This document shows positions 17,070 through 27,383 of a stretch of DNA of 36,278 bases, in pieces. Position 1 is the first letter of the stretch; each line of letters starts with the position of its first letter. Source of the DNA: Acidimicrobiaceae bacterium. GTDB taxonomy: Bacteria > Actinomycetota > Acidimicrobiia > Acidimicrobiales > Aldehydirespiratoraceae. The notes under the pieces were generated by a model. It did not search any database. It worked only from the letters and a program-made list of their open reading frames with translations, and was not told the origin of the DNA. The stretch is from positions 20,337 to 56,614 of the forward strand of contig JAPPMP010000043.1 of NCBI GenBank assembly GCA_028819005.1, written 5' to 3'. Both the position numbers and the translations under genes were made by a program.

Positions 17070-17876
17070 CTACATAGCGAAGGTGCCGTCATCGCGGACT
17101 TTCCAGGCGGCGGCAGCGATCGTGCCGCCGTCTACGGGGATTGATGTTCCGGTCACGAAACTCGCCATGTCCGACGCAAGAAAAACCACGACCGCGGCGT
17201 TCTCCTCGGTCGATCCCATGCGCCGCAGGGGGGTGGGTTCCATGCCGTCGATCTTGGCGCTGCTCGCTTCGGACAGGCTCCGGTCTCCTGGGGTCGGGGT
17301 CATGTCCGGGGCGATGCAGTTGACCCGGATTCCCCGGCCCCCCAACTCGAGGGCCAGAGACTGGGTGAACTGCTCGACCGCCGCCTTCATGGCCGCGTAG
17401 ACCGCGAAACCGGGAGCTGCGTGATATGCCTCCACTGAGGTGACGTTGATGATCGAAGCGCCGTCGTTCATGCGACCTGTGCCGTAACGCACACAGTTGC
17501 TGACGGTCGAGAAATTCTCCGCTATCAGAACGCTCTCACCTTTGGGGGAAACCCCCGAGTACAGCGAGTGGAAGCCTCCCCCAGCGTTGTTGACCAGCAC
17601 GTCGATCGCTCCCAGTTCTGTGACGACATCGCCCAGCCACTGGTCGACTCCGGATGCGTCACGCACGTCGAGTTCGGTGGCGTGACAGCGTCTGCCTGCC
17701 TCTTCGATCGCCGCCTTGACCGGCGGCAGCCTGTCGCCGTGCATGTCGCAGACGGCAACGTCGGCGCCGAACCGTGCCAGCGCCAGCGCCGTGGCTTCCC
17801 CGATGCCCTGCCCGGCACCGGTCACCACCGCCACTCGATCAGTCAACAGAATGCTCTGTGGAGTAACAGCCATCAT
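17070..17876 (-). CDS. SDR family NAD(P)-dependent oxidoreductase
   Basis: 268 aa, classical short-chain dehydrogenase. The cofactor loop is TGAGQGIG (19-26), with NNAG at 96-99 and the catalytic set S147, Y160 and K164 (YAAMK). An acidic residue (D44) after the second strand suggests NAD preference. ATG 17876 follows GGAGG at 8 nt; a second ATG is adjacent. First gene of a two-gene operon with the hydrolase downstream. Its promoter should lie in the 66-bp tandem repeat (17886-18052), which carries an inverted repeat that could be an operator. Confidence 0.92.
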   Translation of the reverse strand: MMAVTPQSILLTDRVAVVTGAGQGIGEATALALARFGADVAVCDMHGDRLPPVKAAIEEAGRRCHATELDVRDASGVDQWLGDVVTELGAIDVLVNNAGGGFHSLYSGVSPKGESVLIAENFSTVSNCVRYGTGRMNDGASIINVTSVEAYHAAPGFAVYAAMKAAVEQFTQSLALELGGRGIRVNCIAPDMTPTPGDRSLSEASSAKIDGMEPTPLRRMGSTEENAAVVVFLASDMASFVTGTSIPVDGGTIAAAAWKVRDDGTFAM

Positions 17877-17885
17877 CGATCACAC

Positions 17886-18052
17886 CTCCTGTGGGGGCAC
17901 ACAAACCGGCACCATCCAACACGGTAGTGTTAGCCGCTGCAACGTCACCGACTCCTGTGGGCGCACACAAACCGGCACATCCAACACGGTAGTGTTAGCC
18001 GCTGCAACGTCACCGACTCCTGTGGGCGCACACAAACCGGCACATCCAACAC
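17886..18052. repeat. 66-bp tandem repeat, 2.5 copies, each full unit with a palindrome
   Basis: Units at 17886-17951 and 17952-18016, and a partial at 18017-18052, all starting CTCCTGTGGG(G/C)GCACACAAA. Each full unit contains AACAC-GGTA-GTGTT, a 5-bp inverted repeat, so the palindrome occurs twice at 65-66-bp spacing; the partial third copy stops just before it. The array lies between the SDR gene (minus) and the thiolase pseudogene (plus), where their promoters would be expected. Confidence 0.93.
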
Positions 18053-18124: not shown

Positions 18125-18555
18125 GTGATCGAACACGACCCGCGTGCGCCGGTGATCATCGGCGTGGGACAGGTTGCTCGCTACCCCGTCGGCAACGAGA
18201 TCCGCAACGCTGCGGACTCGGCGACGTTGACGGCGGAAGCTGTTGAGCTAGCGCTGGCCGACTGCGGTTCCGGCGACTGGCGCGCAAGAGTCGACACGAT
18301 GGCGGGGTGGGCGGGTTGTGGCGCTACCGCGACCCGGCCGCTCTGGCCGCGAGCGAGTGCGGTATCGAGCCGAGCCGAACGGCTCATTCCAGCTTCGGCG
18401 GGCAGATGCCGATCCACCTGTTCGGCGCTCTGAGCGACCGCATCAATTCTGGTGAGATCGACACAGCCGTTCTGACCTGTGGGGAGAACAACCTGTCGAG
18501 GCGGGCGCAAAGGAAACTGCTGCGCGCGCCGTTCCCTGCAAATCTGCGCGTTTAG
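18125..18555 (+). pseudogene. thiolase (acetyl-CoA acetyltransferase-like), frameshifted and truncated
   Basis: GTG 18125 opens a frame with the N-terminal thiolase signature RAPVIIGVGQVARYP, continuing through LTAEAVELALADCG to VDTMAG near 18300. There the frame changes by -1 and the next part reads LWRYRDPAALAASECGI, HSSFGGQMPIHLFGALSDRI and AVLTCGENN, all thiolase-like, to a stop at 18555. The catalytic domains that should follow (several hundred residues more in a full enzyme) are absent, replaced at once by an inverted repeat. The gene therefore has both a frameshift and a 3' deletion and is not functional. Confidence 0.82.
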
Positions 18556-18595
18556 CCACACACCATGTAGCTGAACGCGCAGATTTCAGAAATCT
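18540..18595. terminator. large inverted repeat between convergent genes
   Basis: AAATCTGCGCGTT (18540-18552) and AACGCGCAGATTT (18574-18586) form a perfect 13-bp stem with a 21-nt loop; AGATTT and AAATCT (18581-18595) add a second, overlapping small stem. It overlaps the end of the broken thiolase and lies just past the selenoprotein stop, so it may terminate transcription from both sides. It may also mark the deletion junction that removed the rest of the thiolase. Confidence 0.6.
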
Positions 18596-18598
18596 GGA

Positions 18599-19621
18599 CT
18601 ACCGGCGGCGGGGAATGCCGTGGTAGGGGTGGCCTGCGCTCTTCCATTCGGCGTACAACTCGAAGAACTGATCGCCGAAGGGGTCCATGCCCTGCAACGG
18701 CATTGCGGCCCGCCGCACCGTGAAGTCCATGGGAGCGAGCTCGACAGCAGACGCGAACCAATCAGCCGCTGACGGTTGACCGATCCGGCGAAGATGAACG
18801 GCAATCCGAAACGCCAGGCGCGCGTCTATCTCGTCGGAGTCGAGGTCGCGTATCTCGGTGTCCGCGTCAGACGGGAGCGTTCCCGACTGCACCCATCTGC
18901 GGACTTGATCCATGTGCTCATCGGGACGCACACCGGTGATATCGACGAACATGTCGGTGCCAACCTCGGCTGAGTTGGGGCGGGCGATGGCGCCGTTCTC
19001 ATCGATCCAGACCACGGTGGGCACGTTGCTGATCGCATACAACTCGGCGAGAACATGGTCTCGGTCGAGCAGCACCGGAAACGAGACGCCCTCGGTGAAG
19101 GGTCGGACGTCGTCGGCTGTTTCGTCGAGGGCCACCGCTATCACCATGAATCCGTCGTCTGCCAACTCATCGTTGAGTGCCTGCCACCCGGGCAGGTCAT
19201 AGCGGCAGCCTCACCAACTTGCGAACGCAACAAGTAATCGTTTGCGACCCGCGAACTGCTCCAGCGAGTGATCCTCGCCGTTCAGGTCAGGCAGAACGAA
19301 GTCCGGGGCGCGACGCCCTTTGAGCGCATCGCTGCGGACCGAGGTGGGCACGCTGAGCGCTACGAGATCGGTGTCCTCGGCGAGCATCGAATCGACTCCC
19401 ACAGCCGCCGCGGCGGCGCAGAGGTCAACAGCGTCACCGTGAAGCAGCAACTCTCGATCACGCACCGGAACACACTCGTCGTCTCGGCACAATCCCTGGG
19501 GCTTCAGCTCCCAGCCGAGCACGTCGGGCAGAACGGACCTGTCGACCAGGACCAGGTCATCGACACATTGTCCGGTCACCTCGATCGTCTCGTGCGGCAT
19601 GAGCACAGTTACCGTCGACAT
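18599..19621 (-). CDS. thioredoxin-fold selenoprotein (TlpA/redoxin-like) with in-frame UGA
   Basis: 340 residues if the single in-frame TGA (19213-19211) is read as selenocysteine at position 137. The sequence before it is APDFVLPDL then LLVAFASW; the sequence after it is GCRYDLPGW then FMVIAVALDE. In TlpA/AhpC-type proteins the catalytic Cys follows exactly this FASW strand, so the TGA sits at the active site (U137-G-C139). Further on, SNVPTVVWIDENG holds the cis-Pro. An N-terminal domain of about 100 aa with C45 and C50 precedes the redoxin fold; the C-terminal 80 aa are helical. There is no signal peptide, so it is cytoplasmic. A SECIS-like hairpin follows the TGA. The alternative is a Cys-to-stop mutation making a pseudogene. 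Confidence 0.85.
19180..19213 (-). promoter_or_regulatory. bacterial SECIS-like hairpin after the UGA
   Basis: In the sense strand, 14 nt after TGA comes CCTGCC (19196-19191), loop CGGGT (19190-19186), then GGCAGG (19185-19180): a 6-bp perfect GC-rich stem with a 5-nt loop containing GGGU. The loop starts about 20 nt past the UGA, within the range known for bacterial SECIS elements, where SelB binds a loop with G and U. It lies inside the coding sequence, as expected in bacteria. Confidence 0.7.
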
Positions 19622-23517: not shown

Positions 23518-23573
23518 CTCAGACAAGCGGCTCTCAGACAAGCGGCTCTCAGACAAGCGGCTCTCAGACAAGC
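23518..23573. repeat. 15-bp repeat, 3.7 units, multiplying the stop codon of the ThDP gene
   Basis: CTCAGACAAGCGGCT at 23518, 23533 and 23548, with a partial copy from 23563. On the minus strand the unit reads CTT GTC TGA GAG CCG, where the copy nearest the gene supplies its last two codons and stop. Because 15 is a multiple of three, the gene is followed by four in-frame TGA codons. Confidence 0.95.
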
Positions 23574-25588
23574 AACGCGTCGGTGACGACTTCGACCAGG
23601 GCGGGACCGTCGAAGGCGACAGCCTCGGCAATCGCGGAGGGCAACTGCTCGATCTCAGCCACTCGGACGCCCCTGGCGCCGCACAGTTCAGCAAAAGCTG
23701 CAAAGTCGGGATTGTGCAGCGAGGTCTGCCAGACGTCGAAGTCGGCCGCTCGTTGCTCTTTGGAGATCTTGCCGAGTTCTCCGTTGTTCATGAGCACGTG
23801 GGTGATGTTCATGCCGTACTTCACGGCTGTCGTCATCTCCATCGCGTACTGACCGAAGCCTCCGTCACCGGAAACTGACACGACCGGGCGGTTGGCGTAC
23901 TCCGGCTGACTCTGCGTGGCGGCCCAGCACCCCATCGCGGCCGGCAGCGAGAAGCCGATCGACCCGAGGTAGCCCGACATCAGAACAGCCTGTTGACGAA
24001 CTTCGAAATAACGGCCGAACGAGTAGGTGTTGTTGCCGACGTCGACCGGCATGATCGCGTCGGGCGGGACACAATGGCTGAGCGCGTCGAACAGCGCCGC
24101 GGCGCCGATCCCAGCGCCGCGATCGTCCTGGCGTCGGCCGGCCTTCTCACTGCGCCAGATGCTCCAGCGCTGCGCGACTTCATCTTCAGCGCCACTGCGG
24201 GCGATCGGCTCGCCGTTGACCCCCTCCAGCCCTTCGAGCAGGGCTTTGGCCACGACCCCGACATGGCCCTGAACCGGAACGGCGACGGGATGAAACCGGC
24301 CGAGGGCCATCGGATCGAAATCCACCTGCACGATCGGCTTGTAATCGGCGATTCCGGTGTGGTTCGCGAACGACACTCCGAACGCCACGATCAAGTCGGA
24401 CTCGTTCATGAACCAGCTCGCCACCGGAGTGCCTGAGCGCCCCAGCACGCCCGCCGCCAAGCGATGCTGGTCTGAGATCAGACCCTTCGCCTTGAAGGTC
24501 GTGGCGACCGGTGCATCAATGGCCTCGGCGAAAGCGACGACGTCGCGGGCCCCCGCACGGGCGCCGTTGCCGATGATGACAAGGGGGCGGTCGGCAGCCG
24601 AGATCGCCGCGATCGCCGCGCTCAAAGCCTGGGCCGGCGGCGCGATCTCGCGATCTCCGCTGCGACCCTCGGGCGACCCGACGCGTGCGTTGTCGTCCGC
24701 CGCGAGCACCTGAACCTCGTCGGGCAGCACCAGATGAGCCACATCGCGTTCAACCAGAGCCGTTTTGCATGCCAGAGTCATCAGCTCACCGTGGTCCGAG
24801 GTCGCCTGCACAGTTTGCGAATAGCGCGCCACATCAGCGAACGCCGCAGAGAGGTCCGTGTCTTGAAAAGCTCCACGACCGCGGACTTTGCTGGGGACCT
24901 GCCCGCATATCGCAAGCACCGGCGCCCGATCGGTCTTGGCGTCGTACAGCCCGGTCATGAGGTTGGTCGAGCCGGGACCGGCGATCGCGAAGCAAGCCGC
25001 GAGCTTGCCGGTCAGCTTGCCGTATGCCGTCGCGGCGAACGAGGCGGCTCCCTCATGGCGGATCCCGATAAAGGAAAGGTCGCCGCGCTCCTCAGCCGCA
25101 CGCATGGCATCAGCGAAGCCAAGATTGGAGTGTCCTACCATCCCGAAGACATGGGTGACGCCCCAGTTGACCATCGTTTCGACCATGACGTCGGAGACGC
25201 TCAGCGGCCGTGCCATTTCATGTGGAAGAGCCACATACACCCCGTCGTCGCGAACCTCTGTCCGGTAGGCCGCGGGCGCGTCGGAGAACGCTCCCGGCGG
25301 TTTCCCGTTCTTGGGCGAATAGTCGTAGCCGTGCCATGGACAGCGGAGCCAGCCCCCTTCGATCGACCCCTCGCCGAGCGGGCCGGCCTGATGCGGGCAG
25401 GCATTGGCCAAACAGCCGTAGCCACCCTCAGCCGTGTGGGTGACACAGAGGCTCTCATGGCCGATGGTGACCGTCGAGACCCGGCCTTGAGGCAACTCGT
25501 CGAGGCCCACGAGCCGGTGCCATGAGAACTCTTCTTGTGGCAGAGGGGGCTCTTCAACCGATGGACTGTCGTCAAGCGAGTCGCTCAT
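23564..25588 (-). CDS. Rieske domain fused to a ThDP-dependent enzyme
   Basis: 674 aa. Residues about 20-125 form a Rieske [2Fe-2S] domain: C64-P-H66 (NACPHQAGP) and C83-P-W-H86 (CPWHGYDY). The rest is a three-domain ThDP enzyme of the acetolactate synthase/pyruvate oxidase class: the catalytic Glu is E179 (IRHEGAASFAATAYGK), the central domain runs about 310-440, and the ThDP/Mg motif GDGGFG ... MNN lies at about 565-595. The normal family has no Rieske domain. An electron-linked 2-oxo-acid oxidation or decarboxylation is the natural guess. ATG overlaps the stop of the Rieske-GltS gene, which has the same N-terminal architecture, so they probably act together. Substrate unknown. Confidence 0.88.
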   Translation of the reverse strand: MSDSLDDSPSVEEPPLPQEEFSWHRLVGLDELPQGRVSTVTIGHESLCVTHTAEGGYGCLANACPHQAGPLGEGSIEGGWLRCPWHGYDYSPKNGKPPGAFSDAPAAYRTEVRDDGVYVALPHEMARPLSVSDVMVETMVNWGVTHVFGMVGHSNLGFADAMRAAEERGDLSFIGIRHEGAASFAATAYGKLTGKLAACFAIAGPGSTNLMTGLYDAKTDRAPVLAICGQVPSKVRGRGAFQDTDLSAAFADVARYSQTVQATSDHGELMTLACKTALVERDVAHLVLPDEVQVLAADDNARVGSPEGRSGDREIAPPAQALSAAIAAISAADRPLVIIGNGARAGARDVVAFAEAIDAPVATTFKAKGLISDQHRLAAGVLGRSGTPVASWFMNESDLIVAFGVSFANHTGIADYKPIVQVDFDPMALGRFHPVAVPVQGHVGVVAKALLEGLEGVNGEPIARSGAEDEVAQRWSIWRSEKAGRRQDDRGAGIGAAALFDALSHCVPPDAIMPVDVGNNTYSFGRYFEVRQQAVLMSGYLGSIGFSLPAAMGCWAATQSQPEYANRPVVSVSGDGGFGQYAMEMTTAVKYGMNITHVLMNNGELGKISKEQRAADFDVWQTSLHNPDFAAFAELCGARGVRVAEIEQLPSAIAEAVAFDGPALVEVVTDALLV

Positions 25589-27195
25589 TTTGCTGCTCCT
25601 CCATAGGCGATGCCCGCGAGTTGGGCCATTTCTGAGTCAAAGGTGGTGAGATCGTCAGTGCAGAACTCTCTCAGATGGGTGTGACCGCAGGCCCGTGCCA
25701 GAACACACATCAGTTCGGTGACCGCAGCAAAGAAGCGTTCGAGTCTGTGAGCAGCCTCATCTACCGGTAGGCGGGCCCGCAGTTCAGGCTTCTGGGTGGC
25801 GATGCCCACTGGACAGTTGTTGGTTGAACAAGCCCGCATACCGATACAGCCGATCGCTTGCATGGCTGAATTGGAGACGGCCACAGCGTCAGCTCCGAGC
25901 GCAAGCGCTTTGGCGAAATCGGTGTGGGTCCTGAGTCCACCCGTGATGACCAGGGTGATGTCACGGCGACCGCGGCTGTCGAGATGGCGGCGCGCCCGGG
26001 CAAGTGCCGGGATCGTCGGCACCGAAATGTGGTCGCGGAAAACCACAGGCGCGGCGCCGGTGCCCCCGCCGCGGCCGTCGAGGATGATGTAGTCGACGCC
26101 GATCCGCAGTGCGGCGTCGATGTCGTCCTCAATGTGCTGGGCCGACATCTTCACGCCGATCGGCGACCCGCCGGAGACTTCCCTGACTTGGTCCGCGAAA
26201 CGTCGGTAGTCGTCCTCGCAATCGAACTCGATGAACGTGGACGGGGAGATGGCATCGGTTCCCGGCTCGAGGCCCCGCACTTCGGCGATCTTCCCCTGGA
26301 CTTTGACGCCCGGCAGATGTCCGCCTGTTCCAGTCTTGGCGCCTTGGCCCAGTTTGAAGTGGAAGGCTTGCACGTCGGCGACCTTGTCGATCGACCAGCC
26401 GAACTTTCCGCTCGCCAACTCGTAGAAATAACGTGAATTCTCGGCCTTTTCCTCGGGCAACATCCCACCCTCGCCTGAGCAGATTCCCGTTCCTGCCAAC
26501 TCTGCGCCACGCGCCAACGCCACCTTGGCTTCTTCAGAGAGTGCTCCGAAACTCATATCGCTTACGAACAGGGGAATTTCGAGGCGCAGCGGTTCGGCGG
26601 CGTTGGGGCCGATGAGCACTTCGGTGCCCACCTCCACATGATCGAGCTGGGGTTTGCGCGCCAATTGCGCCGTCACGAACTGGATGTCGTCCCATTTCGG
26701 GAGCTGATCTCTCTCGACGCCCATGGATACAACGGGTCCGTGGTGACCGAGATAGTCCAACCCCTCGTTGGCCAAGCGCCTTGTCAACCCGACATGGGGT
26801 TCCGCCGGGTCGCCGTGGGGATCTTGATAAGCGCCCTGGTATGCGTCTCGATCGAAGGGTTGGGGGTGTTCTTTGGTCCATGCGCCGACCTCGTCGAGGT
26901 CCACGAGGAGATCATCGCCTTCGACCCATGATGCGAACTTGGCGAGTCGCTCCGTGTTGTCGTAACTGGATACCCCAGTGTGGAAGACATAGTCCCAACC
27001 GTGGAGTCCGCAGATGAGGTTGTCGCCGCTGATCCGGCCGTCAGCCATCAGCGCGCCACGGTGCAGACAACGCCCGTAGAGCACCGAGTGGTTGTCGTCG
27101 AAACGAACGACCACCAAGTCGACGCCGTCGACCAGCGCCCCCACCGGTTCACGATCAGGCACTTCTGACCAAGTAGCGATCTTCACCGGGCGCAT
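25585..27195 (-). CDS. Rieske domain fused to an FMN-binding glutamate synthase-like domain
   Basis: 536 aa. An N-terminal Rieske domain (about 1-115) has C43-L-H45 and C62-G-L-H65. From about 140 on is the central/FMN domain of glutamate synthase: SDMSFGALSEEAKVALA, GTGICSGEGGM, GQGAKTGTGGHLPG, ILDGRGGGTGAAP, and a [3Fe-4S] cysteine set C450, C456, C461 (CIGMRACSTNNC). There is no amidotransferase domain, so glutamine is not the obvious nitrogen source; related stand-alone proteins include N-methylglutamate synthase subunits and archaeal GltS. ATG 27195 follows GAAGGAG. It is coupled by ATGA to the Rieske-ThDP gene. Reaction unknown. Confidence 0.9.
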   Translation of the reverse strand: MRPVKIATWSEVPDREPVGALVDGVDLVVVRFDDNHSVLYGRCLHRGALMADGRISGDNLICGLHGWDYVFHTGVSSYDNTERLAKFASWVEGDDLLVDLDEVGAWTKEHPQPFDRDAYQGAYQDPHGDPAEPHVGLTRRLANEGLDYLGHHGPVVSMGVERDQLPKWDDIQFVTAQLARKPQLDHVEVGTEVLIGPNAAEPLRLEIPLFVSDMSFGALSEEAKVALARGAELAGTGICSGEGGMLPEEKAENSRYFYELASGKFGWSIDKVADVQAFHFKLGQGAKTGTGGHLPGVKVQGKIAEVRGLEPGTDAISPSTFIEFDCEDDYRRFADQVREVSGGSPIGVKMSAQHIEDDIDAALRIGVDYIILDGRGGGTGAAPVVFRDHISVPTIPALARARRHLDSRGRRDITLVITGGLRTHTDFAKALALGADAVAVSNSAMQAIGCIGMRACSTNNCPVGIATQKPELRARLPVDEAAHRLERFFAAVTELMCVLARACGHTHLREFCTDDLTTFDSEMAQLAGIAYGGAAK

Positions 27196-27383
27196 TTCGG
27201 CTCCTTCATTCTTTGGTGCATCATCCAATCCGATTCCGATCCCACAGAATCGCACGACTCTGCCACGTTACGCGCCCGAACCCGCACAAACTCGGGCAAC
27301 TATTCGGGCAACTAGTGGTGTACCGGCCCGGGTAGCCTTGTGCGGAGCTTTGCGAATCCTCTCCCTAGTGAACCGGAGCTTTC

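Follow-up and report, generated by a model that had tools for sequence, protein, structure and literature searches.

The window analysed here is a stretch of 36,278 nucleotides from an Acidimicrobiaceae bacterium. On its minus strand lies a gene (18599-19621) that remains open for 340 codons if a TGA is counted as a residue, and then ends at a TAG stop. There is exactly one such in-frame TGA (codon 137, 19213-19211), and the motif around it, FASW-U-G-C-R, is that of a redoxin active site. The original prediction had described this as an intact redoxin gene with a single TGA at the catalytic Cys site, and the open frame and the motif agree with it. It also held that a gene caller would split the gene; the program-made list of open reading frames indeed has two pieces in its place, 19211-19621 and 18599-19165. 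The features at the locus are as follows.

18599-19621, minus strand: predicted selenoprotein gene (open frame with one TGA; PF00578 and PF08534 matches; conserved end to end in relatives; structure model)

19472-19489, minus strand: codons 45-50, two invariant cysteines in C-x4-C spacing within the N-terminal domain, GLCRDDECVPV (Cys/Sec columns conserved across 18 diverse members of the clade)

19211-19213, minus strand: TGA codon 137, predicted to be read as selenocysteine (TGA in 7/7 close relatives; Cys in 11 relatives, the genomes of which nearly all lack selA)

19180-19196, minus strand: SECIS-like hairpin, CCUGCC / CGGGU loop / GGCAGG (longest invariant run; stem kept in Sec forms; one copy in the genome)

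An ABC-2 transporter gene lies upstream and a short-chain dehydrogenase gene downstream, and both are retained in the closest genomes; this neighbourhood gives no clear functional link to the putative selenoprotein gene. A 21-nt inverted repeat at 18540-18586 (AAATCTGCGCGTTTAGCCACA / TGTAGCTGAACGCGCAGATTT; 90% complementary, 5-nt gap) begins 12 nt past the stop codon and is perhaps a terminator. Three 65-nt tandem direct repeats, two of them identical, overlap the beginning of the dehydrogenase gene and extend upstream of it (17847-18042). Elsewhere in the window (23564-27255) are two adjacent genes, each encoding a Rieske [2Fe-2S] domain at the N terminus, followed in one by a TPP enzyme and in the other by a glutamate-synthase-like domain.

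The encoded protein can be divided into an N-terminal domain with the C-x4-C pair (codons 1-98), a redoxin domain (about 100-215) that carries the predicted Sec137 together with Cys139, and a helical, TPR-like tail (about 230-340). Residues 101-213 match Pfam AhpC-TSA (PF00578, 58.3 bits, above the gathering cut-off of 26) and Redoxin (PF08534, 53.5 bits, above the cut-off of 26.6), and the TGA falls at the catalytic Cys position of these matches. The full-length protein was modelled with a pLDDT of 74, lower around the active site; residues 97-248 of the model align with ResA, GPX4 and further redoxins at tied scores. The only Cys/Sec columns conserved among 18 diverse members of the clade are C45, C50, residue 137 and C139, which bears out the added N-terminal cysteine domain of the original prediction. 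The N-terminal 98 residues are modelled with fair confidence as a small domain (pLDDT 83). A Foldseek search of this model against the PDB gave no match with E below 0.4, and its best VIA-align result was Z 5.2 with an rmsd of 3.8 over 91 residues, which does not imply that the fold is new. The tail is matched weakly by TPR_2 in 13 of the 18 members. No hydrophobic N-terminal segment was found in the protein (the largest 19-residue hydropathy is 1.58, at residue 58), and it is therefore likely cytoplasmic, judged from its sequence.

The TGA is conserved. All seven relatives taken from the GTDB collection (58-89% identity) carry it at the same codon; other random stops in close strains were to have marked a pseudogene, and none of the seven has another internal stop. 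A class sample of 296 Acidimicrobiia genomes contains 90 with a relative belonging to the window's family or its sister clade: 78 have TGA forms and 12 only TGA-free forms. Taken alone, the window's clade (scores above 200 bits) occurs in 51 of the 296, with TGA in 41 of these. Of the 77 motif-holding loci that were read, 66 carry TGA; in the other 11 the codon is TGC or TGT, so that every TGA-free relative read (11/11) has Cys at position 137, the replacement that had been expected of a Sec site; the codon of the twelfth TGA-free genome (G068) was left unread. The distribution of selA follows that of the TGA: it is present in 75 of the 78 TGA-bearing genomes and absent from 11 of the 12 with only TGA-free forms (Fisher p about 1e-10, a value that overstates independence since the sequences are related). 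The exceptions are three TGA-bearing genomes with no selA match (G174, 70% complete; G188, 79% complete; G292, 96% complete) and one Cys-bearing genome that has one (G162, 5% contamination); three of these four are incomplete or slightly contaminated assemblies. In a tree of 76 members, at least five Sec/Cys changes fall on supported branches within the window's clade. A TGA conserved at the Cys site of homologues strongly supports the prediction of Sec at codon 137.

The family and its sister also occur outside the class: in a phylum sample they were found in 18 of 396 genomes, eight of them non-Acidimicrobiia, and in six of these eight a single in-frame TGA is the only stop. No relative was confirmed on viral contigs, and a plasmid collection gave only ResA/TlpA-like matches, all below 60% identity and each short of 80% coverage of the protein.

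The 6-bp stem of the hairpin starts 14 nt past the TGA (nt 15), and its 5-nt loop, CGGGU, 20 nt past it (nt 21); both the spacing and the GGGU-containing loop are as originally described. The 15-nt core (CTGCCCGGGTGGCAG, 19181-19195) is the longest invariant nucleotide run in an alignment of the eight closest genes, and its pattern occurs at one site in the 3.06-Mb source genome. In the same eight genes codons L143, P144, G145 and Q147, which could vary, have no synonymous difference at all, where the mean is 0.49 (permutation p 0.0002, indicative only since the compared sequences are related by descent). Of 65 distinct Sec forms 64 keep the full 5-bp stem, as against 6 of 11 Cys forms (p 1.4e-4, likewise indicative only). 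One Sec form (L064) has the stem CTTCC...GGAAG, in which both sides are altered together at the cost of a Gln to Lys change. The loops of the Sec forms are CGGGT, GGTCT, CGTGT, AGGTT and GGACT; GGUCU is part of the SECIS loop of E. coli fdhF. Folding of a single 44-nt sequence at the hairpin was not significant (z = -1.06), so that support for the hairpin is comparative and not energetic. Mean folding energy differs little between Sec and Cys forms, and stem completeness and codon choice are better tests of the hairpin than folding energy. No Rfam SECIS model matched either the whole window or the 131-nt site. Lying just downstream of the UGA and having a G/U-containing apical loop, the hairpin looks as a bacterial SECIS within a coding sequence should.

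The source genome encodes the complete Sec machinery, each part of which the original prediction had named as a check: tRNA-Sec (64 bits, anticodon TCA), selB with selA adjoining it, and selD (358 bits). The selD gene (L025) has an in-frame TGA of its own, in a G-U-G-C-K motif, and is likely itself a selenoprotein gene.

Could the TGA simply be a recent nonsense mutation in an ordinary Cys redoxin, or a sequencing or assembly error? In favour of this is that ordinary gene callers would cut the gene in two. Against it, independent assemblies as little as 58% identical share the TGA, their frames otherwise open; dozens of the class genomes carry it too; and relatives retain the downstream half over its full length. 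Conservation of the TGA across independent genomes refutes a pseudogene or an error, to which we attach practically no probability. Two separate proteins, an N-terminal one and a redoxin-tail one starting from an internal TTG at 19165, are conceivable in that both pieces are open in frame. Such a split would, however, separate the active-site strand of the thioredoxin fold from the helix, and the Cys forms of selA-free genomes are single full-length proteins; we consider it very unlikely. Decoding of the TGA as another amino acid, for example as Trp by a reassigned or suppressor tRNA, is about as improbable as a pseudogene: no support for it was found, relatives have Cys and not Trp at position 137, the genome has tRNA-Sec with selA and selB, and the neighbouring genes are open under table 11. 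The conserved TGA, the Cys of relatives, the full Sec machinery and the conserved hairpin argue instead that 18599-19621 is almost certainly a selenoprotein gene with Sec at the redoxin active site, as was first proposed, and not a pseudogene.

Is this selenoprotein new? Its kind is not. A 2008 ocean (GOS) survey listed 46 'Prx-like (UGC-containing)' selenoproteins (PMC2398784), a 2022 review continues the UGC-containing family (PMC9312934), and the listing in a 2026 review (PMC13188914) includes cd02966, a 'UGC-containing TlpA disulfide reductase family protein'. The 2008 and 2026 sets share with the window's protein a PF00578-type redoxin domain and the UGC motif; they are defined by domain and motif only, and the window's clade, which was compared with them by description, may be among them.

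The closest family model is NCBIfam NF041054, WAxxUGC_long ('ResA-like WAxxUGC motif-containing protein'). Its members occur within the same class and share with the window's clade the U-G-C active site, the position and near-identical sequence of the hairpin, and homologous N-terminal and redoxin domains; their C-terminal tail is unlike that of the window's protein, on which the match ends at residue 221, before the tail. The window's protein scores 197.5 bits, below the cut-off of 300, and the other scores observed in its clade are 182 and 227 bits. The best E value among the 18 diverse members, 6e-75, is near 253 bits (in our calibration 253 bits corresponds to 5e-75 and 320 bits to 2e-95), which places all 18 below 300 bits. 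The genes above the cut-off (L077, L080, L086) are all of the sister clade, of which another member (L090) is below it, and the NF041054 set and the window's clade are divided by a fully supported branch of the tree. Both clades are present in G246, a genome of the window's genus, whose second UGC selenoprotein gene (L076, G246:C5:75-4029) is of the sister clade; a gene like L076 is absent from the window's own genome at E 1e-20.

Literature searches gave no match for WAxxUGC, nor for ResA-like together with selenoprotein; the one paper found that names Acidimicrobiia with a selenoprotein is a mangrove metagenome study of lignocellulose degradation. No separate description of the window's clade was found. 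The original label 'undescribed-looking' thus does not apply to UGC selenoproteins as such (PMC2398784; PMC13188914; NF041054) but holds in so far as the window's clade falls under the NF041054 cut-off: the kind, a UGC redoxin selenoprotein, is already known, and the clade seems to be without a family model of its own.

Two known enzymes invite comparison. ResA/TlpA proteins are membrane-anchored and have a CxxC active site. ResA-type thioredoxins are the closest PDB sequences to the window's protein, and ResA/TlpA structures (1su9, 4nmu) are the best sequence and Foldseek matches of its redoxin domain. The window's protein differs from them in having no membrane anchor or export signal, in its two extra domains, and in having U-G-C (C-G-C in Cys forms) in place of CxxC. 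GPX4 is a Sec enzyme and matches in its thioredoxin fold over 134 residues (Z 10.5, rmsd 2.7; tied with other redoxins), but it is only about 13% identical to the window's protein, which scores below the cut-off of Pfam GSHPx (PF00255, 23.9 bits against 27). GPX4 is not known to have a U-G-C pair.

Comparison of genomes and genes shows a TGA and a hairpin that are conserved, Cys in place of Sec in relatives, and co-occurrence with Sec machinery; the translation of the gene, the chemistry of its residues, the relay and the substrate are inferred. SelB would bring Sec-tRNA(Sec) to UGA codon 137, placed by the hairpin that lies 14 nt downstream within the coding sequence, and the ribosome would then insert Sec and translate 203 more codons. 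In a thioredoxin fold of the TlpA/AhpC type, Sec137 would be the residue that attacks, and it could pair with Cys139 as a selenenylsulfide; the invariant N-terminal pair C45-x4-C50 may pass on electrons that re-reduce the active site. The role of the protein is likely cytoplasmic thiol-disulfide exchange or peroxide reduction. A more speculative proposal, which we think possible but rather doubtful, is that the window's clade is a separate, unnamed Acidimicrobiia selenoprotein family in which the N-terminal C-x4-C domain is the built-in reductant of the U-G-C redoxin and forms with it a self-contained selenium redox relay in the cytoplasm.

Ordinary annotation will split the Sec genes of the window's clade, carried by roughly one in seven sampled genomes of the class, or call them broken. 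The repeated Sec/Cys switches, which parallel the presence and absence of Sec machinery, would make the family a natural series on the benefit of selenium to a U-G-C redoxin.
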